Positions 5,888 through 54,565 of a DNA stretch of 64,000 bases are shown piece by piece (position 1 is the first letter of the stretch; every line of letters begins with the position of its first letter). The notes beneath the pieces are model-generated. The model was not told where the DNA came from and did not search any database. It saw only the letters and a list, made by a program, of their open reading frames with translations. Source of the DNA: Polystyrenella longa (GTDB lineage: Bacteria > Planctomycetota > Planctomycetia > Planctomycetales > Planctomycetaceae). The translations under genes were made by a program, and so were the position numbers. The DNA lies in the NCBI RefSeq assembly GCF_007750395.1, contig NZ_CP036281.1:1761001-1825000 (forward strand), given 5' to 3'.

Positions 5888-6230
5888 ATCTATAAAGAAC
5901 AAATTGTCTTCAGGGGTGTTGCCGTCGGAAAATCGAGTTCCCGCGACAACGAAAGTACGATACTGCACGAATTCAGAATCTGCAAGCCTCTGGCCGCCCA
6001 TCGAACGATTTTTCAGTCAAGCGGTTGGGACACACCCTGCGTTCTATCTGCCGTCTCATATAAGACTTAGATACCGTTGATGAAAACAGGTTCGCGCTAG
6101 GAATAGCCTGTAAGGCTTGATTTTAAGGCGGGAACCCGAAATCCTGTGAAAATGGGCCCGCTTTTGTCCCGGAACGGCCCCCGATCTCGATCTATCTCGT
6201 CTTTCATCCTTGCCGAAATTAACTGTTTTT
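5888..6230. other. Intergenic, 343 bp
   Basis: No convincing gene or RNA was found between the tRNA-His 5' end and the ATG of the TrmH-type gene. Open frames here have no codon pattern or recognisable product. A weak GCGGG/CCCGC pairing followed by TTTT near 6126-6165 is too short to call a terminator. A promoter for the tRNA (leftwards) and for the methyltransferase gene (rightwards) must lie here, but no good -35/-10 pair was recognised. Confidence 0.4.
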
Positions 6231-11441: not shown

Positions 11442-13949
11442 ATGAGATCTCATTCGATCCAAACGCCTCTGATTCCATTATTACTCGGTTTGCTGTTTCT
11501 CGCTGGTGCTTCACGCATTTCCACTGCCGCAGAACCTGTCGAACCAAAATGGACGGGCCGCGGGGCTTACCGTCTGCTGCTGGAGGTTCCTGCCGATTCC
11601 AATTTGACAGACCGCAAACAGGATGAACGAGTCGTTGCCTGTCCAGTTGATTTCAAAACTTGGTTGATTGATCAGGATGTCAATGGGACAGTTGATCTGA
11701 GTACGCTGCAGTTGCATCGATTCGATCCTCAAACAGGAGAGCCGATCAAAGGGAGTGAGTATGCAGCGGCGAAAACACCTTGGGATCAACCCTGTCGATT
11801 TGAAGATGACGAGTTCAGTGACGGATACACCAGCCGAGTGGGCCGTCCTTCCGAAACGGAAGATGGACGCACTCGACAATTCCAACGCCCTCGCAAAGCT
11901 CGACTGTTCAACCGGGAGATGTCGGCAGAGCAGGGCCGGCTCATCTGGTCGCATGTCGCAGAGCAAAATAAACCTGCGGCCTATGCCCTCTATTTTGATA
12001 TCAAACAGGAACAGGACATGAAATCTGTTTCTCCCGCACCCTGGATAGGCGATGCCGATCCACTGCGACGCGAAACAGAAGAAGCCTTAGGTGGTTTTGC
12101 CCATTTTCCGGCGACCGTTGCCGACTTAAATGCCGATGGTCTGGAAGATCTCATCTCGGGAACAGAGAAAGGGGATCTAATCTGGTACCCCAACAGAGGA
12201 ACACGTGAGCGTCCTCACTTTCAAGGTTGCCAGATTCTGACGGACGAGACAGGGCCTATTGATACTGGTTGGTATGCGGCTCCTTTCGTTTACGATTGGA
12301 ACAACGATGGTTTGCTCGATCTCCTCGTCGGATCGAGTGGTAACGTCATTCTCTGGTGGCAGAATGTTGGCTCTCAAAAGAAGCATGATTTCCAGTACCG
12401 TGGTTTTGTGCAAAACGAAGAAGATCGGCTTCGTGTTCCAGAGACGCCAGTGGCGGAAGATGGAGCGAATATTTTCAAACATGACTATTACAACCAACCC
12501 TGGGTGGGAGACTTGGATGGCGATGGTCTCCCGGAGATTGTCACCGGTGGTTATACCACGGGGCGGATTTTTCAGTATCAAGGAGTGGGGCGGAACGCCG
12601 ACGGAACTCCGAAGCTGAAATATGCCGGAGAACTTGGCACTGACAAAGGACCGATTGATACCGTTTGGGCTGCGGCCCCCTGGATGTGGGACGCGAATGC
12701 CGATGGTCAATTCGACTTGCTCACAGGTGGCTGGTACTGGAGCGGAATCGAAGCCCCCGCTCCGCCCGGTGTGGCGGACTATCTTCGTTTCTATCAACAT
12801 GCGGGCAAAGAACCTTTATTGTTTGAACGCTTGCCCTTTCCGAAAACCGACTCGTTTCCGCGAGGGGTGATTACTCGACCTGTGCTCTTTTACGCAAACA
12901 GCGATCCAATGCCCGATTTATTAGTCAGCGATAATTCGGGTGAAGTTCACATCATTCCCAACATCGGTAAAGCGGGTGAACCCCGCTGGGATATGCCGGG
13001 CGAGAGGTTAACCGCTCCCTGGGGTTTTGACAGTGATTGGGACGCGACCGGTTTCGCCAGTTCCAATACCGGATCCGAATCGGGAGAGGTATTGATCGGG
13101 ACTTATCTGTGGAAACGCGAAGGATCTGCTCGCTCGCCGGAGAAAAAACTGATCGGTGCACCACGGGTAAATGGAAAGCCGATTTCTCATCCGGGACCGG
13201 GTTATGGAGATGGGTATCTATACACTCAACTCTACGACTGGAACAACGATGGTCACAACGACATTCTGTGGGGAACGCAACAGGGAAATATTTACGTTCA
13301 TCTCCATAGCGGCACAGGCGATCCCCTGGAGTTTGAACCGGGGCAACTTGTTGAACTGGCCACGGGCGAATCACTCAAAGTCGGTCCGCCTGTCGTTGAC
13401 TCGGTCGAGGAAGCAACCGACTTCACGATTCTGCAAGGTTCCCGGATTGTCTTCGCGCTGTCTGATTTCAATCAGGATGGAATCGACGATCTTCTGATTG
13501 CGGAAACATTCGCTCAACTGTGGTTGTTCCCGGGACAGGCCCCCTCAGAAAATGCGGAAGCAGCCGCACGGACTTTTGGCCCCGGCCAGTTACTCACCAC
13601 TCTGAAAACCAGGATAAATCAAATCTGCTGCTTTGACTGGAACAAGGACAGCTTTCCCGACCTATTATTAGGTGGAACGGCGACGGAGCCGGTGATTGTC
13701 TACCTCAATCAAACACAAGCGGGAGACCCTGCGTTAAGTGAGGCACAAGCGGTCGAAGGTTTGCCTTATCTGTTCTGGGGACCGCGAGTGGCTGCTACCG
13801 ACTGGAACGGCGACGGTGATGACGATCTGATGGTTCAAAGTGAATTCTTTTCCTTCTGGATTGAACGGTCCTTTCTTGATCATGGATATTTCGCGGCTCA
13901 GGTGTCGGGAAAAGCGGGAGAGTATCTCCAGCACCGCCCGAATCCCTGA
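11442..13949 (+). CDS. Secreted FG-GAP/VCBS-repeat beta-propeller protein
   Basis: An 835-residue exported protein: signal peptide to about residue 30 (PLLLGLLFLAGASRISTAAEP), an N-terminal region of about 180 residues without a recognised family, then FG-GAP/VCBS repeats forming a probable beta-propeller. At least eight calcium-loop motifs of the DxDxDGxxD type are visible, such as DLNADGLEDL, DWNNDGLLDL, DLDGDGLPEI, DANADGQFDL, DWNNDGHNDI, DFNQDGIDDL, DWNKDSFPDL and DWNGDGDDDL. Such proteins usually bind ligands at the cell surface. It shares a short spacer with the DUF5722-type gene upstream and may form an operon with it. Its own ligand or catalytic role cannot be read. Confidence 0.85.
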   Translation: MRSHSIQTPLIPLLLGLLFLAGASRISTAAEPVEPKWTGRGAYRLLLEVPADSNLTDRKQDERVVACPVDFKTWLIDQDVNGTVDLSTLQLHRFDPQTGEPIKGSEYAAAKTPWDQPCRFEDDEFSDGYTSRVGRPSETEDGRTRQFQRPRKARLFNREMSAEQGRLIWSHVAEQNKPAAYALYFDIKQEQDMKSVSPAPWIGDADPLRRETEEALGGFAHFPATVADLNADGLEDLISGTEKGDLIWYPNRGTRERPHFQGCQILTDETGPIDTGWYAAPFVYDWNNDGLLDLLVGSSGNVILWWQNVGSQKKHDFQYRGFVQNEEDRLRVPETPVAEDGANIFKHDYYNQPWVGDLDGDGLPEIVTGGYTTGRIFQYQGVGRNADGTPKLKYAGELGTDKGPIDTVWAAAPWMWDANADGQFDLLTGGWYWSGIEAPAPPGVADYLRFYQHAGKEPLLFERLPFPKTDSFPRGVITRPVLFYANSDPMPDLLVSDNSGEVHIIPNIGKAGEPRWDMPGERLTAPWGFDSDWDATGFASSNTGSESGEVLIGTYLWKREGSARSPEKKLIGAPRVNGKPISHPGPGYGDGYLYTQLYDWNNDGHNDILWGTQQGNIYVHLHSGTGDPLEFEPGQLVELATGESLKVGPPVVDSVEEATDFTILQGSRIVFALSDFNQDGIDDLLIAETFAQLWLFPGQAPSENAEAAARTFGPGQLLTTLKTRINQICCFDWNKDSFPDLLLGGTATEPVIVYLNQTQAGDPALSEAQAVEGLPYLFWGPRVAATDWNGDGDDDLMVQSEFFSFWIERSFLDHGYFAAQVSGKAGEYLQHRPNP

Positions 13950-43680: not shown

Positions 43681-43709
43681 TGTTCTCTTCTGAATATCGT
43701 CAGAGAACA
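43681..43709. terminator. Hairpin between convergent uppP and giant-protein genes
   Basis: TGTTCTCT (43681-43688) and AGAGAACA (43702-43709) form a perfect 8-bp stem with a 13-nt loop in the 42-base gap between convergent stop codons. There is no T-tract on either strand, so termination is suggested mainly by position. Confidence 0.35.
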
Positions 43710-43716
43710 AGTTCCG

Positions 43717-46700
43717 CTATTCCTGTGTTTCAAATGGAACGCCATAGGAACTGTCGACGATTTTACCGCGGTTGAATTGATAAAATATAAAGACGGTCGC
43801 GGCCATAACGATTAACAGTCCGACCAACGGCATTACCCAGAATTGCCACCAGATTAGTCCGACGAGAGCGAGACTGAATGGAAGGCCATATCGGGCTAGG
43901 GAAGAAGCCCACCAGGTTTTACGAGCCAGATATCGATAGGTGAGAGCAAAAACTCCGGAAACGAATAGGAGCAAACCTATTCGCACAGGGATTGTATAAC
44001 TGAAAGAAAAAATGCTTAGCTCATGTTTAAGCAGGCTTTTCTTCAGTATCAAATGAGCATCGGAGTGGTCGGGAGGCATCATTACTTCAGGAAGCTTTTG
44101 TGTTCCACGAATTGGTTGAAACTCTATTTCCAGCTTCTTGAATTCCGTTGGATTTTTCTTATCCATTCCCGCTTGGAGTAGGGCAGCATAATACCCCGAG
44201 ATTTCACTCAACATCTCTGTTCGCAATCCATCATTCTCTAAGTTCGGATAGACTTTTAACAGATCTTTAACCACGAGAAGTTCGTGTAGATTGTCGGACA
44301 GACCTTCAGCTCTGTCTCCCCGAACGGACACATAATCGTTCTGTGAAGAAAGGCTGAATAGCGTTTCTGGGGCATTGACCGATTGCAGAGCAGGAAGGGA
44401 TTGTAGTGTTTGGAGGTAGCCAGACCAACTCTGTTTTAGCGGAGCTTTCCAGGAAATCTTGACCAAGTTATATCCCTTGGGCGCTGGAATCAATAAACCG
44501 TTACCTTCGATCTGATAGTCTGCAATGGCTTGTTGATTCAGAGTGATTCCTCTTAATTGAAAATCGGGCGCCCAATAGATGGGAAAGTTCTGAGACTCAG
44601 GGCATCGTCCCATAATTGTCGTTTCGCCCAGAATGTTTTGATCTTCGAGTAATTCGCAATGAATATGCTGTAGAAAGAACTGCGCCATAGTCGGCTGTTT
44701 TTTTATGTTTTTCGAAAACTCCACTTTCTCCAGTCCTTCAGTTAAGCGGTATAACATCAGTAATGGGTCTGTTTTTTGGAGTAGGAATGGATCCTCTTCG
44801 ATTAAGCTTTCTGGAACTTCTGTCAGGCCATTCAGCTTATTAATCAGCAATGTCGTGTTGTCGATGGCAAGATAATAATCGACAGGGTGGTTACTAGCAA
44901 TCGAAATGGAATTGATTGACCATGTCTGATTTATCGGGATTGGAAAATTCAATCGGAGTGAAGAGAGAAGATCATAGGGAACTTGCTCCGGCAAGCTAGC
45001 TTCTACGATGAACTGCCCATCCTTCGTTTCGTTTAGAATGGAAAAGACAATTCCGTCATTTGTAAACGTCTTCTCATTCAGTAGCCCGGCGAATTCTGCA
45101 GGTAGGAGGATCCGCAACGACTTACTCGCCGTACGCGCTGGAATAAAGAGATCAATCTTAATGTCGTATTCGCCTCTTTTATCTAGCGATGGCTGAATAG
45201 ACGTAAGAGATTTAATAGGCTTTAGTTCTTCAATTTGTCGCAACGTGAGCGCCGGGGGATTTGTTTTGTTGAAGTTAAGAATAATGTTAGAACGGTTTTG
45301 CGATTCAGTACGATGCCCCACCATTTGAGGTTCGATATCGACTTCTAAAGTGTTTGGTACCGTTATCTGCAACTCACTGTTCGAACGCTCGATTAGCTTG
45401 TTGAATTTGACGAGAGGCAGAGTATAAGGTTCTCCCTGGATATAGGGATACTCCCCGGAGATGAAAATCTGATACTCGGAACTAACCGGTTGGTTCAAAT
45501 AAATTCTCACGTCCTCTTTGTCACGGATCCAGTGGCCCATCAAGTCGTCAGGATTGTCCTGGTCCGTAGATAAATTACTAATTCGAACGGTAGAGATTTT
45601 GACTTGTTCTGGTATCTTTATTTCATGGAAGAATACCTCTTGGTTCGGTAATGGAGTAACTCGTCCGTTAAAGGTCCAGATAACGTGATTAATCTCTGCA
45701 TTTACAGAATATCGACTCGAAAGATCGATGAAATCTTCTTCGGAAGTTATGCGTGATAAAGCGTTCTTGCGCTGGATTTGAAAGTCGAGAGCTTTACCTT
45801 TTATCAACTTGATAATTCGCCCGGGCTTCGCCTGCAGTTGTGGAGGAAACAATGTTCGAACTTGATCGTTCGACTCCGTGATGTCCATAAACTGACTTGG
45901 GTTCGTCATGGTTAAATCAATATTGGAACGCGGGATGATGCCAATGTAAAAGTTTTCCAGTGTATTTCCGTTCGTTTGAGAATCGAGAGCGGAAATGGTC
46001 ATGCGGACTGGAGTCTCTGCCTGGGGGGCTACGACCGACATTACAAAACGAGCCTCAACAGTCACGGGAAACATGTTATCTCGAGGTGTAATATCAAGCT
46101 GATAATTAATGAAATGAGAAGCCTGTTTATCAACGAAAATAGAATTGTCATCGACGACTTCATTGTTGATTCGGATTTCCTGCATAATCAGGTTTTCGGG
46201 AACTTTCCACGTGAGCGGGTAACTGCTGCCCGCATCGAAACGAAGAGCTGAATTCCAAAGGTATTGAATGCGATACGTCAATTCTACACGTGTCGGAAAG
46301 AGACTCGCCTGGCATGTTTGTCGCTCGCAGAGGAAGTAATCACTTTCCGGTGTCCATTCATTAGCCCACCGAAAATTCATGGTGTTGACGCTTCCGAGTT
46401 TGATGGAGTAGGACTTAATATCGGAGGTGTCTGGCTTTAACTCGCTTCCATTTAAGAATAGAAACTCGTCCTGAAGATCGGATTGTACCGTTAAATTACT
46501 GTTGGTAACCGCTGGAATTGCGAATGTGAATTCCCGGGAATCTTTAATTGCTGATAGCGAACGCGGATAAAACTTGATTTGCAGGAATAGTTTGCGGAAA
46601 CGAGCGGCAGACGAATTGGAGCTGAGATCGATGCTCTCTGATGTAGGACGTTCCGCAGCGGTTGGTAGTTTTCGTCGGTCGACTGAACATTTAAATCCCG

Positions 46701-49700
46701 CATGAATGGGAATTAAATTATCGAAAGCTACTTGGTTGATATGGCAATAATCGACAGCCACTTTCGAGTCGAGTGGTAATATGAAATCATATGTTGACTC
46801 CGTCTCGGGAACGGTGAGCACATAATTTGCTACAACACTTACTCCTCCGGCTGACTTAACGTCAACATGATAATCCGCTGATAGAATCCATGTGTGCGAA
46901 TTTACGTCGGGAACTGGCGGTCGATTGCGAAGTTCATAATCCAACGTATAGGGAACGTAATAATAAACATCGTCGTCACGACGTTTATTATAAGGGTAAA
47001 TGTAGATGGTTTCTTTTTCGCTGGCGAACTCTTGGGACACTCGTTGAGAACGAAGTTGCTGCTGGGCGAACCCATTAGAACAGCAGTTGAAGAAGACCAC
47101 GCAGAAAAGCAAGATCGGGGTGACCGGGTAAGCTTTTGTACTCCCGATCGGAATTTCAGGAATCTCTTTCCGTGCGAGATGACGCAGGTACATAAAACGA
47201 ATGCATGCAGACAGGACCCATCCGAGAATAGTCCCTGAAAGTAAAGCACCTAACGGAAGCTGTATCCAACCAGTCGATAACATCAAGGCCGCCATCGTTA
47301 TACCTGTAAGACAACCACAGACAAGCGTGTGGCTTTTTAATTTGTAGTTCAAAATGCACGTCAACAGACAAGAAAGAAAGAAGATCAACGAACCGAGTAA
47401 ATGATAATTTGTTGAATTCATAACTCGAAAGGAGATATTTTCAGGAATGTACATGTGCCGTAAATAGAAAGAATGATTCTGGTGGGTTAGCTGTTCGTCT
47501 GCCGGTGTCGTATAGACGACAGTTGGTCGATTGTTTCGGACCGGGGTAATTCGACCGATAGGACCCCACAAGTAATAGGGGAACTGTGCATTTGTGGATT
47601 CGTAAATAAGATCGTCGTTAGAATAAACCGTGGTTACATATTCCCGAGAAGGGGTGTTGATGAACCAACGGAAATCTTTTACAGGCAGTGAGATTCGTGG
47701 GAAAGAAGTTCGGAAGTTCCGTGTATAGAACTCTGAATCCTGAGTGGACAGTCGATAACGGATCCGTAACGAGCCACCCTCTGAGAATTGTTCCAGAGGA
47801 AGTTTGACGCCACTCTCCAGGTTCAGTTTCTTGTCGCCAAGATGACTGGAAATTATTTCGATTTCGTCAAGCCATTCTAACGTTACGGTCTCTTTACTGG
47901 ATGTATGGGGAATTTCATAGATTGCTTCATATTGCTGAATTGGATCTCTACTGACCCCGATCGTGGTGAACAACTTCAGGCTGCAAGCAGGCAAATAATC
48001 TTCATCCGGTGACCGGTTAAGGCTCGAAATCGCGAAATCATCAGACAACTGTGAATTATATTCGATGAGTTCCGAAGCCGGTCCTTTATCGGTCGGCTTA
48101 GCATTCTTCGGGAGAGGAGGGAGCGTTAGAAGGTCAGACTGGCTTTGGGAATCCAGTCTGATGGGCACTGAAGAGTTATTCTGGACAGAAAATGAAGCAT
48201 GGAACTCCATTGCGCCGGGAACGGTTAGTAGAGGAATCTTTCCTTTAAGGAATTGATTCTTATTGATGCTGTTGAATATAAACAACCGAAACGGTTCAGA
48301 CTGTCCTGACTCTAAAGTTGCTTCCCATAGTTCTCCTTGAACGGGCAATTTCCAGTATGAGAACTTTGAAAGTGGCTGTGGTAATGTCGAAACATTCTTG
48401 AGCGAGGGCGCCTGTATTTCTAATGATGTCGATTCGCTCTGTTTAAAGAGGTAAACTTTGTTTATCCGGGTACCTTCCGGGTCGATCAGAATCTTGATCC
48501 GTTCATCAACTTGTGATTCATTGACAACATAGCTGGTCTCGACGGTGACCTTGAAACTCTGTTCGGGTGTGTTGATTCTTAAGGAAGGAATCTCGCGGGT
48601 ATTTAAAAATTGCAGGACACCGATATTGTCATCGGTGGAACGATCTGAGTTTACAATGTCAAAATCTAGAACGTTGAACGGAAGGTCGTCGCGCAGAATC
48701 TCTTTGATGTATTGATTCGAATTGATATCTTCCGAGGGATCAATAAGCGAGTTCGGCAAAAAAGCGAGCAACGAGCCCAGTTGCCCTTCGTCCGAATGAA
48801 AGAATGGGAAAATCAGGTCAGTGTGGGTTTTGGGGATCTGAGAACGTGCTTCAATCAAAACGGCTTCAGTCTCACTGGAAGCGATGCCTTCGGCGAAATT
48901 CAAGTGTAATAAAGATTGCTCTCGATTCGGCCCCGTGACTGACCATTGGAACGCACTGTTAGAATCCGGGGTACCACGGCCACGCTGTCGAACATCAATG
49001 ATGTCCCATCCGAGTGGAATTCGGAATTCATGGTTAAATATCATTCCGCGGGTGCAGGTTAAAGCGATTTCAGTCGTCAGGTTCCATTCCGTACTTTCTC
49101 GAGTGATGAAACATACCTGAGCAAGATCAACTGCAACTTCCGGAAAACCGACTTCAATTTCCAACTCGCAGTCTTGAGCCAATTGTTGAAATTTCAACGT
49201 AGTTAACTGGCCTTCATTTATATATTCGAGTTGCAGGTTATCGGGATGGTGATCGCGTAGTTCCAGCGGTCTTGTAATATCGACTTCCCAGTTACTATTG
49301 AGAATCAGATTGTTCAATAGTTTAACTTTAGGTAATGCAAACGTTGCCCCTCCATCTCCAGGGTTTGCAGGCAAGCTACTGATCAGTTCCAGCTTAATTC
49401 GATGCTGATCACCTTGGATCTTGTCCGGAAACAGTATCTGAACAATCGTCCCTTCGACATCTTCGGATACTTCTTCCCAGAAAAGATTTTCGATATCACC
49501 GTATCGAAGTGAGGTGATTTCCAATCCAGGAGAGAGTTGCAGTTCGACTTTGTCGACCTGATTCTTGCGTACTTTGAACGAGATTTCACTACTGATCGAC
49601 AGGCTTTCCTGTTTAATCTTGTATCGATGGGATTCTTCCGAAAGCAGCAACTGAGAATCTTGAAAAGCATTCGCAGGTAGACTAGTCCCGCCGGCACTAT

Positions 49701-50499
49701 CCTGGAGAGGAGTCGTGCCGGGTTGATCATCGTCCGCATAGGTTAGTTTGAATGTCGCGACTGATCCTTTCAGAGACAAGATCCAATCCCGGTGTGAAGG
49801 ATAAGACGACTCTTCCGTAAGGACGACACCTTCTTCCAGTTCGAGACTGATGTTTTCTGGAAGACTGATTCTCAAACGGGTGACGGCGGAGGGAGGTAAC
49901 TGAACTTGATACAGATGGTTTTCGAATACACTTCGGTTCGTGATTGACCATTGACCTTCAATTGATCCAGACGAAGGAACCATTAATCCGATTTGATTCT
50001 CACTCAGTGTTCCCCAAATCGTAGGCGATGATTTCCAGGAAAGCTCGCTGATGAGAATGTTGAGAGGGGACAGGTTCAGGAACCGGTTATTGTCTTTCCC
50101 CGCTGAGACTTCACCAGTAAAGAAACCATCAACAAACGAGCGATGACTGGAATTGGTGGGAGTCAGTTCATTTGAACTAAACCGAATGCGGAATTCGGAC
50201 TTGAGCATCAACGGCCTTGCGGCCAGAGCTATAGAACTCTCATTCCAGAGTTTCTCAAACTCTTTTTTTTTGATTAGCGTATAACCATCCGGGGGAGAGA
50301 AGTTTTCAGGAACGCGGATGAACTCCAGTTGATGATCGGCAACTGTAGACGTAGCTTGCTCCTGACCATTGCTAATGGAGGCATTGATAGTCAGCAGAAA
50401 CCAGATCGTCATGAGGACTTTTGTGATTTGTGGGAAATCGCTACAGAGCGAGAGAGGATTCTCAGAGGTCAGTAGGGAATGCAATATACGCTTCCTCAT
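43717..50499 (-). CDS. Giant membrane-anchored protein with duplicated architecture, function unknown
   Basis: A 2260-residue protein with no family I recognise. An N-terminal signal/anchor (VLMTIWFLLTINASISNGQ) is followed by about 990 mostly beta-strand residues and then a helix cluster near residues 1030-1110 (LLGSLIFFLSCLLTCILNY; PLGALLSGTILGWVLSACI). Next comes a second signal-peptide-like stretch near 1126-1142 (ILLFCVVFFNCCSNGFAQQQ), another 1000-residue beta-rich region, and a C-terminal helix cluster near 2170-2250 (IGLLLFVSGVFALTYRYLA; PLVGLLIVMAATVFIFYQF). Each half matches the size and layout of the upstream 1181-residue protein, so this looks like a fusion of two such genes. AAGGAGG lies 6 nt before the ATG, which overlaps the previous stop by four bases. 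A periplasmic or surface structural role is inferred. Confidence 0.82.
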   Translation of the reverse strand: MRKRILHSLLTSENPLSLCSDFPQITKVLMTIWFLLTINASISNGQEQATSTVADHQLEFIRVPENFSPPDGYTLIKKKEFEKLWNESSIALAARPLMLKSEFRIRFSSNELTPTNSSHRSFVDGFFTGEVSAGKDNNRFLNLSPLNILISELSWKSSPTIWGTLSENQIGLMVPSSGSIEGQWSITNRSVFENHLYQVQLPPSAVTRLRISLPENISLELEEGVVLTEESSYPSHRDWILSLKGSVATFKLTYADDDQPGTTPLQDSAGGTSLPANAFQDSQLLLSEESHRYKIKQESLSISSEISFKVRKNQVDKVELQLSPGLEITSLRYGDIENLFWEEVSEDVEGTIVQILFPDKIQGDQHRIKLELISSLPANPGDGGATFALPKVKLLNNLILNSNWEVDITRPLELRDHHPDNLQLEYINEGQLTTLKFQQLAQDCELEIEVGFPEVAVDLAQVCFITRESTEWNLTTEIALTCTRGMIFNHEFRIPLGWDIIDVRQRGRGTPDSNSAFQWSVTGPNREQSLLHLNFAEGIASSETEAVLIEARSQIPKTHTDLIFPFFHSDEGQLGSLLAFLPNSLIDPSEDINSNQYIKEILRDDLPFNVLDFDIVNSDRSTDDNIGVLQFLNTREIPSLRINTPEQSFKVTVETSYVVNESQVDERIKILIDPEGTRINKVYLFKQSESTSLEIQAPSLKNVSTLPQPLSKFSYWKLPVQGELWEATLESGQSEPFRLFIFNSINKNQFLKGKIPLLTVPGAMEFHASFSVQNNSSVPIRLDSQSQSDLLTLPPLPKNAKPTDKGPASELIEYNSQLSDDFAISSLNRSPDEDYLPACSLKLFTTIGVSRDPIQQYEAIYEIPHTSSKETVTLEWLDEIEIISSHLGDKKLNLESGVKLPLEQFSEGGSLRIRYRLSTQDSEFYTRNFRTSFPRISLPVKDFRWFINTPSREYVTTVYSNDDLIYESTNAQFPYYLWGPIGRITPVRNNRPTVVYTTPADEQLTHQNHSFYLRHMYIPENISFRVMNSTNYHLLGSLIFFLSCLLTCILNYKLKSHTLVCGCLTGITMAALMLSTGWIQLPLGALLSGTILGWVLSACIRFMYLRHLARKEIPEIPIGSTKAYPVTPILLFCVVFFNCCSNGFAQQQLRSQRVSQEFASEKETIYIYPYNKRRDDDVYYYVPYTLDYELRNRPPVPDVNSHTWILSADYHVDVKSAGGVSVVANYVLTVPETESTYDFILPLDSKVAVDYCHINQVAFDNLIPIHAGFKCSVDRRKLPTAAERPTSESIDLSSNSSAARFRKLFLQIKFYPRSLSAIKDSREFTFAIPAVTNSNLTVQSDLQDEFLFLNGSELKPDTSDIKSYSIKLGSVNTMNFRWANEWTPESDYFLCERQTCQASLFPTRVELTYRIQYLWNSALRFDAGSSYPLTWKVPENLIMQEIRINNEVVDDNSIFVDKQASHFINYQLDITPRDNMFPVTVEARFVMSVVAPQAETPVRMTISALDSQTNGNTLENFYIGIIPRSNIDLTMTNPSQFMDITESNDQVRTLFPPQLQAKPGRIIKLIKGKALDFQIQRKNALSRITSEEDFIDLSSRYSVNAEINHVIWTFNGRVTPLPNQEVFFHEIKIPEQVKISTVRISNLSTDQDNPDDLMGHWIRDKEDVRIYLNQPVSSEYQIFISGEYPYIQGEPYTLPLVKFNKLIERSNSELQITVPNTLEVDIEPQMVGHRTESQNRSNIILNFNKTNPPALTLRQIEELKPIKSLTSIQPSLDKRGEYDIKIDLFIPARTASKSLRILLPAEFAGLLNEKTFTNDGIVFSILNETKDGQFIVEASLPEQVPYDLLSSLRLNFPIPINQTWSINSISIASNHPVDYYLAIDNTTLLINKLNGLTEVPESLIEEDPFLLQKTDPLLMLYRLTEGLEKVEFSKNIKKQPTMAQFFLQHIHCELLEDQNILGETTIMGRCPESQNFPIYWAPDFQLRGITLNQQAIADYQIEGNGLLIPAPKGYNLVKISWKAPLKQSWSGYLQTLQSLPALQSVNAPETLFSLSSQNDYVSVRGDRAEGLSDNLHELLVVKDLLKVYPNLENDGLRTEMLSEISGYYAALLQAGMDKKNPTEFKKLEIEFQPIRGTQKLPEVMMPPDHSDAHLILKKSLLKHELSIFSFSYTIPVRIGLLLFVSGVFALTYRYLARKTWWASSLARYGLPFSLALVGLIWWQFWVMPLVGLLIVMAATVFIFYQFNRGKIVDSSYGVPFETQE

Positions 50500-53400
50500 G
50501 GTGAATCCTCCTTCTCCGATGTGCTCACTGGAATTTGATGCCCAGATGGATGACGAAGCGCAGTCGAATCTTCTGATCCGATCTGTTGAGATCGCATGCC
50601 CGATTGCCAGGAAGGAGTAACAACGAAATCGCGTGATGAGTTCAGTTCGTAGTAGTCTGTTGCATGACGACGGCGTAAGAGTTCTTCAATCGCAACAGCG
50701 ATAAGAGCGAACAGGATCCCAATAATTGCAGGTTGGATTAATACTTGGATAATTGGCCAGTACCAGAGACCCGCAAGAGCAATTGCGAATAGCAGCACAC
50801 AGAATGCGAAGCTGTTGTGCAAGTAAGAAATCCTACGGAAAAGAAATCCGCATAAGAGAGCTATACCAGCGCCTGAAAATACCAGCATCGACAGGGAGAT
50901 CGTTTGAAATGAAATAGAGTCTCCTGCATCAGTTCGCGCGAAATCATAATGGTATCGATAGTTGATCCCGTCGTTTCCACTTAAAGCTTGGTATAACTCG
51001 TTCTCATTCTTTTCTACATCCGAGCGCCGATACCAGAAAAGTCCCTCACGCTGCCACGAAAACAGGGGGGCCCATTTTTCTGGCGGAATTAGTAAGTGCT
51101 GGGAATGTGAACTGGTAATTTCAGTAATGGCTTGAGGAGTCCAAATCTCCGATGAAAAACGGGGGAATTTAACCTGATAGCTGCGCAACCAGTTAGAGCT
51201 GTTTGACTGGTTCAAACGATAACTCATAACCAGTTGGTGTCGTCCTTCAATTTCATTTGAAGGAATGTCGATTAGCCACTCTCGTTTCAATTGCTCGGTA
51301 GACTTGACGACATTCACTCCATCCCAGTCAATGGTGAGACTTTGAAAGCCTAAAGGCATCGTAATCAGAATCTGTTCCGGAGAACCTTCAATCAGATAAC
51401 GGGCCTCGATCAACAATTCTTTTTGAGAACGTAGATCGATTTTGTAAAGAGCAAGTGGAACTTGAAAGTCCTGCACAGTGAGTACTTTGCTGGGGATAAG
51501 TTGAACCGTCACATCGCGGTTGTCACGATCAGGAGTATTCAATTGCCAGGTGTTTTCATTGTCACCGACGATAGGCTGCCAATTATCGGGGTTGAGTTCG
51601 ACGTCGTATTGGCGTTGCTGAGTCTTGGTTAAAGTCACCGCGCTGAATGGCGTTGCTTCCAATGTGAAATAAGGGATCTGGAAAAAATGTCTTCCGCCCT
51701 GTTCATCGACTCTTGATCGTTCGACGCGATACTGGATCGAGACCTGGAATTTACCTAAGCCCTGACTATGAGTGACCAGCAATTCTGATGCACTTCCCAT
51801 TGAAGTTGTTTTTTCAGGTTTAATTATATTGTTGTCTGCGCCCCGCACTTCCAACTCGCTGTCGCTCAGTTCGGACGGAATATACAAACGCACCAGTTTG
51901 AGTGGATCATATTTAACATCCAACGAGATGACCTGTCTCACGGTGAGGTAGTTGTTCTGATGTTCTAGTAGCTCTAGTTGGGTATTGGCAATTACTTCCT
52001 GTTTGCGAGTGATCACGTTCAGATGTAACTTTTGATCTTTGGGAGTCGTAATCGACCACTGAGAAATATTCTTCTCAGGTTCCTTGATTGAAGCCGCGAC
52101 AGAATAAAGTTCCCGCTCTTTAGCAGTGAGCGGTGAAATCTTTGTCTTGCCGTTGGGAGTTATCTGTGTTTCCAAGTTGGGTGAGGAAATAATCGAAGTG
52201 ACGGCGGGGGCGCTGAGTCGTTGGATTTCTTCATCCAAACGAGGCAATGTGAAATCCAGTTCGGGCTTTTTCAGGTCGATTGTCTTTTCAGTGAGAAAGC
52301 TGATTTCCTTCTCACCAGAAATAGGATCCAGAAACCGAATACGCAGCTGGCCAGACTCTTCATCGTATTCGATATTCTCAATATACGTTAACTGATTGAT
52401 TGGGTCGTTAAACGACGGTGTCGACCATCCTTCGTCTGAGAATTCGTTCCAATCAAATGTGAGTTCGCTCAGTTCACCTCGCAACACCTTAAGTGCCAAA
52501 TTAGCTTTTAAAGCTACCTTGAGTTTACCCGATTCTGCTAAATCCGGGTTCAACGAGACGACGTAATGGGCATCGAGCGAACTGAGAGGAGGAATTTTCT
52601 CGACTTTGAGCTTCATGTGAAAAGGTTGCGAATAAAAACTATAAGCCTGCGAGATCTTTTTTTGTGAATCCAGGCTATCCGCACTCAGATCACGAATCAG
52701 ACTTCGCTCCTGCGGAATATTACGAATGAGGAAGCTTTCCCCTTTCTGGATAGTGATCGTGCCAGGCTGTTCCAGAATCTGAGTCGAAGTCTGTTCGTCA
52801 CTTGTAGAACGGCTAGTACTCAATAGTTGAAAAGCACCATCAAGTATCAATTCATCGCTTTCAAGTGGTCTCAATGTGAGGACGTAATTAAGCGTGACCT
52901 GGCCCGTTGCCGGTTCCTTCAGGAAGACGGTCATCTCATTGTTTTCCTCAACCTCACGATTCAAATAACCTTCGCCGCTAACCTCTTCCACTTCAAAGTT
53001 CTGCGGCAATCGAATGCGCAACGTTTTGAAGCTTCCTCGTTCGTCAGGCTGAACAGTCTGCTCGACCATCATCTGGACTGATTTCTCGAGATGATCACTT
53101 AAGAATCTCAGCTCGATTTTCGTACTGGATCGCAGGACAACCGGTTTGTCTTTGACTAACGGTATAAATTTCCACGTCAGATTGATGGCATCGCTCAAAA
53201 TGGGGAACACTACCTCCGTTTTCCCTGTCTCCAATTCCCGTTGCTGGAATGTGGTATCTGGTAGCGAGATTTCCAAGTCGAGAGTAGGGAGTAACAGTGA
53301 TGCCTTGCGAATGGTTGCCTCAGAGGGAAGTGAAAGAAAAAGCATCTGCGAAGACGAATTCAACCGGTTCTTTACAACCATGTCGAGTTTGAGCTCATAG

Positions 53401-54041
53401 GTTCCTTTACCTTCGATGAGCCAGTAGTAACCAGTTTTGGGATCTGTTCGATGATGTTGCGCGTAGCCTGGACCAGTACTCTTAAAGTCGGTGAGAGTCC
53501 CCTCTTTGGCACCCAGAGGTATGATCTGGGCGCCTTCATCGGAATTGACTTGTACTTTATAGGTGAGCTCCAATTCGGCAAACTCTTCGAGAATTTCCCC
53601 CTCGACCATGATGCTGGTAATGCTGAAGTCGGGGATTTCGGTGACGGTTTGATTCAGAACCGGATCAGTCGTCTCGTTCTTTTTACGCCACTCCAGCCAT
53701 TGTTTCATGCTTTTGGTGATGTCGGCTGGAAGCGGTAACTTTTTTTGGTTCTCATCGACCAGAAAACTTTGCTCTGGAGCGGGCTTATTCGTATTTGCGG
53801 GAGGGACGTTGCTCGCCTCACTGGCGTCACTTTTCGGCTCGGCAGCGGCCATCGGACTTGCTTCAGTTTTGGGAGCGGATGACTCCTGTCCGCGCGCAAT
53901 GTCACTGTCGTAGCTCCAGAGCAGCGCGATTCCCAGCAGTATCGTCAAAACTCGCACAAGCGAACCTCGAATGCAGATAGGTACGTTAATCAGATCAATC
54001 TTGAAGGCGATATCGAGCAGTTCCCCGTGCTCTGATCTCAT
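50496..54041 (-). CDS. Large membrane-anchored beta-rich protein, function unknown
   Basis: A protein of about 1181 residues (1195 if the TTG at 54083 is used; I prefer the ATG at 54041, though neither has a good ribosome-binding site). An N-terminal signal/anchor (LVRVLTILLGIALLWSY) precedes a Pro/Ala/Ser-rich linker, a roughly 900-residue region of repeated beta-strand modules (FSITSIMVEGEILEEFAELELTYKV; VTLNYVLTLRPLESDEL; VVLRSSTKIELRFLSD), and a C-terminal cluster of three to four helices near residues 1040-1120 (LSMLVFSGAGIALLCGFLF; FAFCVLLFAIALAGLWYW; IIGILFALIAVAIEELLRR). The tail of about 55 residues is hydrophilic. The layout is the same as each half of the 2260-residue product, to whose gene it is coupled by ATGA. 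No enzyme motif is seen; a surface or periplasmic scaffold is the best guess. Confidence 0.8.
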   Translation of the reverse strand: MRSEHGELLDIAFKIDLINVPICIRGSLVRVLTILLGIALLWSYDSDIARGQESSAPKTEASPMAAAEPKSDASEASNVPPANTNKPAPEQSFLVDENQKKLPLPADITKSMKQWLEWRKKNETTDPVLNQTVTEIPDFSITSIMVEGEILEEFAELELTYKVQVNSDEGAQIIPLGAKEGTLTDFKSTGPGYAQHHRTDPKTGYYWLIEGKGTYELKLDMVVKNRLNSSSQMLFLSLPSEATIRKASLLLPTLDLEISLPDTTFQQRELETGKTEVVFPILSDAINLTWKFIPLVKDKPVVLRSSTKIELRFLSDHLEKSVQMMVEQTVQPDERGSFKTLRIRLPQNFEVEEVSGEGYLNREVEENNEMTVFLKEPATGQVTLNYVLTLRPLESDELILDGAFQLLSTSRSTSDEQTSTQILEQPGTITIQKGESFLIRNIPQERSLIRDLSADSLDSQKKISQAYSFYSQPFHMKLKVEKIPPLSSLDAHYVVSLNPDLAESGKLKVALKANLALKVLRGELSELTFDWNEFSDEGWSTPSFNDPINQLTYIENIEYDEESGQLRIRFLDPISGEKEISFLTEKTIDLKKPELDFTLPRLDEEIQRLSAPAVTSIISSPNLETQITPNGKTKISPLTAKERELYSVAASIKEPEKNISQWSITTPKDQKLHLNVITRKQEVIANTQLELLEHQNNYLTVRQVISLDVKYDPLKLVRLYIPSELSDSELEVRGADNNIIKPEKTTSMGSASELLVTHSQGLGKFQVSIQYRVERSRVDEQGGRHFFQIPYFTLEATPFSAVTLTKTQQRQYDVELNPDNWQPIVGDNENTWQLNTPDRDNRDVTVQLIPSKVLTVQDFQVPLALYKIDLRSQKELLIEARYLIEGSPEQILITMPLGFQSLTIDWDGVNVVKSTEQLKREWLIDIPSNEIEGRHQLVMSYRLNQSNSSNWLRSYQVKFPRFSSEIWTPQAITEITSSHSQHLLIPPEKWAPLFSWQREGLFWYRRSDVEKNENELYQALSGNDGINYRYHYDFARTDAGDSISFQTISLSMLVFSGAGIALLCGFLFRRISYLHNSFAFCVLLFAIALAGLWYWPIIQVLIQPAIIGILFALIAVAIEELLRRRHATDYYELNSSRDFVVTPSWQSGMRSQQIGSEDSTALRHPSGHQIPVSTSEKEDSP

Positions 54042-54565
54042 TGGATCAAGACTCGAATCGTGCAACAACTGAACGTTATTCAACGATCATTGTGAGCGGT
54101 AACTTGAGTCCCTGTCCTTTTTAGATATCTATCTCCCCAGTGGGAGACAATCGCTTCCGATTGAAGTAAGAAGTGTAAGAGTGGTCATCGATCTCAAGCT
54201 TTTAAGAATAGGATGACGCTCCTCTCATACTAATTTACGTTGAAACTGCTCAAACAATAAAGGACATTTGGCTAAATTGGACCCTTTCAGAAGAATTCTC
54301 CAACTGTACCGATTAATCGGTTTGTAAGTGGGGAATTCAACTAGCAATAGCCTTGTTGCTCCCATGGTCTTCAGGCGAAAACCTATATGTCCTGCTGAAT
54401 TCTACTTCAGCAGTTCTGTTAAAAGCATCGACATCGAGGCCTGAGTTGATGGTCCTTGAACTTTGGTTGAAATTCGCGATTCGGGCTTGCCAATAGTTCG
54501 TGACCTCGATATCGCTTCGCTGGATACGACTCTCAAGGAGCCGTCAGTGAAGATCCACGTCGAAT
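54042..54565. other. Intergenic, about 520 bp, with several dyads
   Basis: No gene is supported. A perfect 14-bp palindrome ACCGATTAATCGGT lies at 54308-54321. An 8-bp hairpin CTGCTGAA/TTCAGCAG with a 6-nt loop lies at 54392-54413. TCTCCC/GGGAGA with a 4-nt loop lies near 54130-54146. The region must hold the promoter of the leftward giant-protein genes and the end of the leftward inositol-phosphatase transcript. The palindrome is the best candidate for a regulator site. Confidence 0.45.

Follow-up and report, generated by a model that had tools for sequence, protein, structure and literature searches.

In FbcH, the cytochrome b/c1 precursor of Bradyrhizobium, a single chain carries two membrane-anchored subunits, both respiratory and without kinship to one another, together with an internal signal peptide at which signal peptidase cuts. 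To our knowledge, bacteria rarely have conserved cellular polyproteins that are processed by signal peptidase. Ribophorin I, a subunit of the eukaryotic oligosaccharyltransferase (OST) complex, is a membrane-anchored beta protein that faces the lumen, and its domains have the fold of the M1 aminopeptidase N-domain. Here we describe two overlapping genes, A and B, in a 64,000-nucleotide window of Polystyrenella longa (contig NZ_CP036281.1, positions 1761001-1825000 of a single-contig genome of 6,125,480 bases). The genome table published for strain Pla110 gives the same length and a G+C content of 50.3%, and a passage of that paper describes the phylum as noted for its giant genes and for genes without known function (PMC7716846). 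On balance, and judging from sequence, we think it probable that B and A together encode three paralogous, exported and membrane-anchored units, with A being a polyprotein that is cut in two to give partners of B.

Both genes lie on the minus strand, as do all features located below. Open reading frame and profile comparison place gene A, which encodes 2260 residues and comprises the fused units 2 and 3, at 43717..50499, directly following gene B (unit 1; 50496..54083). The longest B frame, of 1195 residues, opens at a TTG at 54083; an ATG at 54041 gives 1181 residues and a GTG at 53957 gives 1153. We consider the GTG (residue 43) the more likely start rather than the ATG, because the alignment with a congener (MRILTLLLG... 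signal peptide) supports it and a short signal peptide begins there (residues 43-65, 53889..53957, ending ...ARG/QE). The stop of B and the start of A share the ATGA at 50496..50499, and a good ribosome-binding site, AAGGAGG (50507-50513), stands 7 nt 5' of the A start codon. The initial annotation had placed both frames and their overlap correctly, and hydropathy bears out its description of a layout, with a hydrophobic stretch at the N-terminus and clustered helices at the C-terminus, that occurs once in the 1181-residue protein and twice in the 2260-residue one. In B, the N-terminus is hydrophobic, and helices near residues 1064, 1094 and 1114 form a cluster (residues 1064-1132, 50688..50894) that recurs in relatives; the part between, of about 990 residues (50904..53888), is presumably extracytoplasmic and holds internal repeats about 190 residues apart, as read from self profile alignment and a low-confidence model of this part. 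A begins with a signal peptide (residues 1-45, 50365..50499, ending ...SNG/QE), has helices near 1032, 1059 and 1082 (the unit 2 cluster, residues 1032-1103, 47191..47406), a further helix near 1123-1144, and more helices near 2169 and 2213-2220 (the unit 3 cluster, residues 2169-2238, 43786..43995). This layout of both proteins is also present in their relatives. The description of the long intervening parts as beta-rich has its basis in low-confidence structure models only.

We compared the three parts as profiles built from relatives. Sequence was taken from 40 places, up to 20 kb at each, and, with the window counted, yielded clean sets: 39 proteins for B and 38 for A. With hhalign, the first half of A (A1, unit 2; residues 1-1145 up to the predicted cut, 47065..50499) matched B at 99.9% probability (E 2e-33), with A1 170-1102 aligned to B 221-1135. 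The second half (A2, unit 3; residues 1146-2260 past the predicted cut, 43720..47064) matched B at 99.8% (E 1.1e-30) and A1 at 99.5% (E 5.9e-23). Reversed profiles reached at most 5.4% and five column-shuffles per pair at most 0.1%, so that the likeness proposed in the initial annotation is found in all three pairings. Each unit also aligns to itself at start-to-start shifts of 188-207 residues, in the manner of tandem repeats, and unit 2 is closer to unit 1 than to unit 3. At the level of sequence profiles, B and the two halves of A are homologous.

The stretch that joins units 2 and 3 resembles a signal peptide. A putative internal signal peptide covers A residues 1119-1145 (47065..47145) and ends in a predicted signal peptidase I site, GFA/QQQ, and an alignment of 32 A proteins gives the consensus GST...LL.A........AQ between the halves. 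We defined a junction motif (small-x-A-[QDE] after a hydrophobic core) after seeing the first set and fixed it before the later one. In the first set, where no segment was found in L100, the motif occurred at 21 of 31 junctions; elsewhere it was seen in 26 of the 236 remaining hydrophobic stretches of A (Fisher p 2.4e-11) and in 9 of 159 hydrophobic stretches of B (p 8.4e-14). The N-terminal signals carried it in 12 of 28 cases for A and 23 of 39 for B. A later set of 28 further A proteins, for which the searched stretch was 3 residues longer in junctions and controls alike and some junctions were mis-picked (e.g. L138, L140 and L173), had the motif at 17 of 28 junctions, compared with 41 of 270 control stretches (p 4e-7). 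Mean net charge is +1.5 before the junction and -0.9 after it. In one relative, L150, unit 3 is a separate gene, and it begins with an ordinary-looking signal peptide ending SAVRA/EE. Collectively, the junction evidence favors a cleavable internal signal, the cutting itself being a prediction. The initial annotation had overlooked this segment, with which the likely product changes from one giant protein to two. In two side observations, the junction of L152 (A residue about 1095-1115) ends in a lipobox-like LPGC, so that in this locus signal peptidase II might process unit 3 as a lipoprotein, and several units of other classes (among L142-L146, L150, L157 and L160) start with a VPY...-like sequence soon after the signal peptide.

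The strongest competitor, which we regard as unlikely and yet well worth weighing, is that A stays uncut, with the junction acting as an uncleaved helix that returns the chain across the membrane and leaves one giant protein with two outer arms. The median uncharged run is 17 residues at the junction, 18.5 in the C-terminal anchor helices and 15 in the N-terminal signals; junction runs thus fall only slightly short of anchors and exceed N-terminal signals, which leaves room for an uncut anchor. Several further points weigh against cleavage or speak for an intact chain. The strict motif is absent from about a third of junctions (10 of 31 in the first set and 11 of 28 in the later set), and it was picked after sight of the first set. 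Long frames are the rule, since in the first set 33 of 38 A genes encode at least 1800 residues; of the five short ones, four (L066, L070, L071 and L075) run off their contigs and one (L094) has an interrupted frame. In L094 the A frame stops inside unit 3 at 6152-6155 and continues in an overlapping frame (1418 + 565 residues), probably through a frameshift. Set against the uncut chain, however, the motif is as frequent at junctions as in N-terminal signals and several-fold more frequent than in other hydrophobic stretches, and the stand-alone unit 3 gene starts with a cleavable-looking signal.

Within Planctomycetota, where the family was searched apart from the scans of genome contigs, a single-sequence search of 59 genomes found B in 40 and A in 26. 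A profile of B matched 133 of 148 genomes of the class and 97 of 294 of the phylum, two draws that overlap and that each include the genome of the window. With the window counted, the first set has 39 places that bear B, and in 36 of them A lies directly 3' of it. The order unit 1, unit 2, unit 3 recurs in other classes of the phylum, units 2 and 3 being fused in most of the complete loci examined. When units outside the profile training set were scored by position, the B profile was best for all 23 position-1 units, the A1 profile was preferred to A2 for 23 of 25 position-2 units (the two misses being L151 and L152, which have no B gene), and the A2 profile was preferred to A1 for 20 of 25 position-3 units. 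Some of these data run the other way: A sits on another contig than B in G013 and G027, and G022 has no A within the 20 kb fetched; the units are also not cleanly told apart, as the B profile scored highest of the three for 12 of 25 position-2 units and 12 of 25 position-3 units; the junctions of L138 and L140 were placed by hand; and the B-less L151 and L152 were counted as positions 2 and 3. Given the order shared across classes, it is most likely, on sequence grounds, that the order of the units predates the split of these lineages.

Second, diverged B-A loci occur in the genome of the window and in others (L137-L141). That of the window's own genome, L137, lies at contig positions 4287000-4306900, and a gene for a ParA/BcsQ-like ATPase immediately precedes it. 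In a tree of 41 B proteins, the type found in the window (15 rows, all of the same class) separated from a second type (26 rows) with a support of 100 by the Shimodaira-Hasegawa-like approximate likelihood-ratio test (SH-aLRT). Taken together, this is a real, old and widespread three-unit family in which two units are usually fused.

Relatives in which the large gene is split, which the initial annotation had proposed to look for, do exist. In L150 there are three separate genes of 1128, 1237 and 1138 residues, each with a signal-peptide-like start, and 47 nt separate units 2 and 3, which are not in the same frame. L157 has frames of 1202, 1419 and 1470 residues, with units 2 and 3 in one frame and a TAG between them. 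Past this TAG, at about 11760-11870, the bases still read as a membrane helix followed by a signal peptide. The TAG is either a recent fission or a sequence error. Both loci come from relatives hand-picked from match tables (L137-L156 and L157-L176, the latter for short-looking frames), and two split loci among these 40, of which L174 is a dummy, are not a rate. In addition, L153, L154 and L165 have two single units each, and L151 and L152 have one fused pair without B. The B tree pairs the split L157 with the fused L164 as sisters (SH-aLRT 99), whose A frame passes the junction and then runs off the contig; from this pairing, fusion and fission are both possible. Since fused loci occur in other classes and unit 2 is nearer to unit 1 than to unit 3, the fusion event, as read from these sequences, is not local to the lineage of the window. 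The proposal that one gene was triplicated with loss of a stop codon thus stands in part: because the three parts are homologous and split relatives exist, multiplication of the unit and joining of two copies fits, whereas the loss of one stop codon is not established.

AlphaFold2 models from three-row alignments had a mean predicted local distance difference test score (pLDDT) of 42.4 for unit 3 and 36.7 for B, and most of each is unusable. In the unit 3 model, residues 85-263 (A residues 1203-1381, 46357..46893) resemble the saddle-like beta fold of the M1 aminopeptidase N-domain, with VIA-align Z scores of 10.9-11.8 among the best 50 rows over about 144-165 residues and block-mean pLDDT values of 38-72. 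Residues 140-266 of the B model gave the same fold at Z up to 7.8, where a Z below 8 may mean a common arrangement only. With Foldseek, the unit 3 model ranked OST complex chains first (E 8.9e-6), which we take to be Ost1/ribophorin I; whole-model TM-scores were about 0.1, and the pilus protein RrgB was also among the 12 matches at E up to 0.001. The B model had nothing at E 0.001 (best 8.2e-3). Foldseek and VIA-align matches cover mainly the first domain and are compatible with other folds. In a viral library no credible match was found for these proteins (best E 5.3e-4 at a probability of 0.16; an M1-like aminopeptidase at E 0.015), and when solved structures were searched by sequence, the best E value was 0.16.

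One could read these arrays of M1 N-domain-like folds as structural or chaperone-like rather than sensory, holding or guiding exported chains, and the two separate low-confidence models do give the same fold at the matching first domain. We consider this role rather improbable, given the low mean scores of both models, the whole-model TM-scores and the Z below 8 for B. Kinship with the M1 N-domain was also tried at the sequence level and is not supported, since hhalign against 15 planctomycete M1 N-domains (PF17900) gave at most 7.4%; neither A nor B has an HExxH zinc motif; and none of 49 genomes, that of the window among them, had a Ribophorin_I (PF04597) match at E up to 1. In these models, the likeness to the M1 N-domain is a lead on the fold and not a sign of membership. 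In line with the absence of a known function in the initial annotation, searches named neither protein: Pfam had no match for A and, for B, DUF2808 as best hit under the cut-off (E 0.15), and NCBIfam and PADLOC had none for either. Among 39 B relatives, Pfam matched TgpA_N in 2 (best E 2.7e-5), while 5 had DUF5693, at E 0.06 or weaker, and among 32 of each A half no Pfam family was matched by more than one member. No M1 N-domain was listed for A, B or these relatives.

That the three parts look alike through similar make-up and terminal helices, with no common ancestry, is very improbable. Pairwise single-sequence BLAST detected A1 with B only (E 3.6e-6) and nothing significant for A2 with A1 or B, as expected of unrelated parts, whereas the profile scores lie far above the reversed and shuffled controls both with the helices and without them (99.4-99.7% for ectodomain profiles), first domains alone match among the units at 91.7-97.2%, and units of other classes match the profiles. 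The possibility that the fusion is an artefact of assembly or annotation, to which the difference of L157 by a single in-frame TAG might point, is negligible and refuted by long stop-free frames in many independent genomes, some of them single-contig.

We return to the reading in which A is cut. Each unit would start with a signal peptide and end in clustered membrane helices, and between them tandem domains of about 900 residues would lie outside the cytoplasmic membrane, a topology read from the sequence. The helices of unit 2 would return the chain to the cytoplasm, after which the positively charged stretch and the internal signal peptide would restart export, and signal peptidase I would cut after GFA (A residue 1145). 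Units 2 and 3 would then become separate anchored proteins in presumably 1:1 amounts. From the conserved order and coupling, units 1, 2 and 3 most likely would assemble into one hetero-oligomeric scaffold or sensor on the outer face of the membrane, and in some other classes this set would be coupled to an extracytoplasmic function (ECF) sigma factor and a probable anti-sigma factor bearing VWA.

This coupling comes from the gene context of relatives. A VWA/YfbK_C gene lies directly before the set in 8 of 80 sources, all from other classes (L151, L152, L158, L162, L163, L167, L172 and L175); Pfam named both domains in L151, L152 and L172, and the other five were assigned by similarity to those. 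The N-terminus of the protein reads as ZAS-like (from the sequence, without a Pfam match) and is followed by one helix or two close peaks, and its product is a probable anti-sigma factor. All eight loci have an ECF sigma gene before it (two named by Pfam, the rest by similarity). The five sigma/VWA-linked B proteins present in the tree form one clade (100). YfbK_C was matched in 136 of 294 genomes, and among the places listed it lies mostly away from B. The window itself tells against this link: its genome has no YfbK_C match, so that the sigma connection is not directly applicable there, and no ECF sigma and membrane anti-sigma genes are among the scanned neighbors of its B and A. A role in envelope sensing or envelope maintenance is a weakly supported leading guess, drawn from the loci of relatives.

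The neighbors of B and A in the window include genes for IMPase, EF-G, DnaB, SSB, UppP and a PDZ protease. When 60 loci were compared with the window, IMPase recurred in 22 others, UppP in 9 and a merged cluster including the PDZ protease in 13, and these conserved neighbors indicate no function. Between the IMPase gene and B lies a conserved block (54206..54337), 5' of B, with 80.0-80.5% identity over 118-120 nt in two congeners (L177 and L178); it has no Rfam match at E up to 1, is overlapped by a 46-residue frame, and may serve the B-A unit as promoter or leader. A search of 43700-54100 for tandem repeats in the DNA had no hit.

Put at its fullest, the proposal is of a widespread three-subunit Planctomycetota envelope machine, with a polyprotein cut by signal peptidase I and arrays of M1 N-domain/ribophorin-like folds, partly wired to ECF sigma factors via a VWA anti-sigma factor; this composite is a tentative one, and as a whole we hold it doubtful. 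We found no published account of the A/B family in a literature search, which reached few subscription papers. If the reading is true, the analysis would offer a testable frame for an unnamed protein set whose profile matches 133 of the 148 class genomes, and fused, split and single-stop loci would expose the evolution of a polyprotein.

Among described systems, the ECF sigma factor with a ZAS-type membrane anti-sigma factor is approached by the pair directly before the set in eight loci of other classes; it differs in that the second gene of those pairs carries VWA and YfbK_C and in that no such pair stands beside the set of the window. The M1 aminopeptidase N-domain (PF17900) and ribophorin I/Ost1 (PF04597) are approached, in low-confidence models, by the first-domain fold of unit 3 and weakly by that of B, whereas A and B have no Pfam or profile match and no HExxH, carry a terminal helix cluster and contain several repeats per unit; a passage of PMC4973528 reports no promising prokaryotic candidates for non-catalytic OST subunits. 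The closest parallel is FbcH. Like it, A is one frame with two complete, presumably exported units and an internal signal peptide, which by motif has a signal peptidase I-like site; unlike those of FbcH, the parts of A are paralogues of each other and of B, and their separation by cutting is a prediction.

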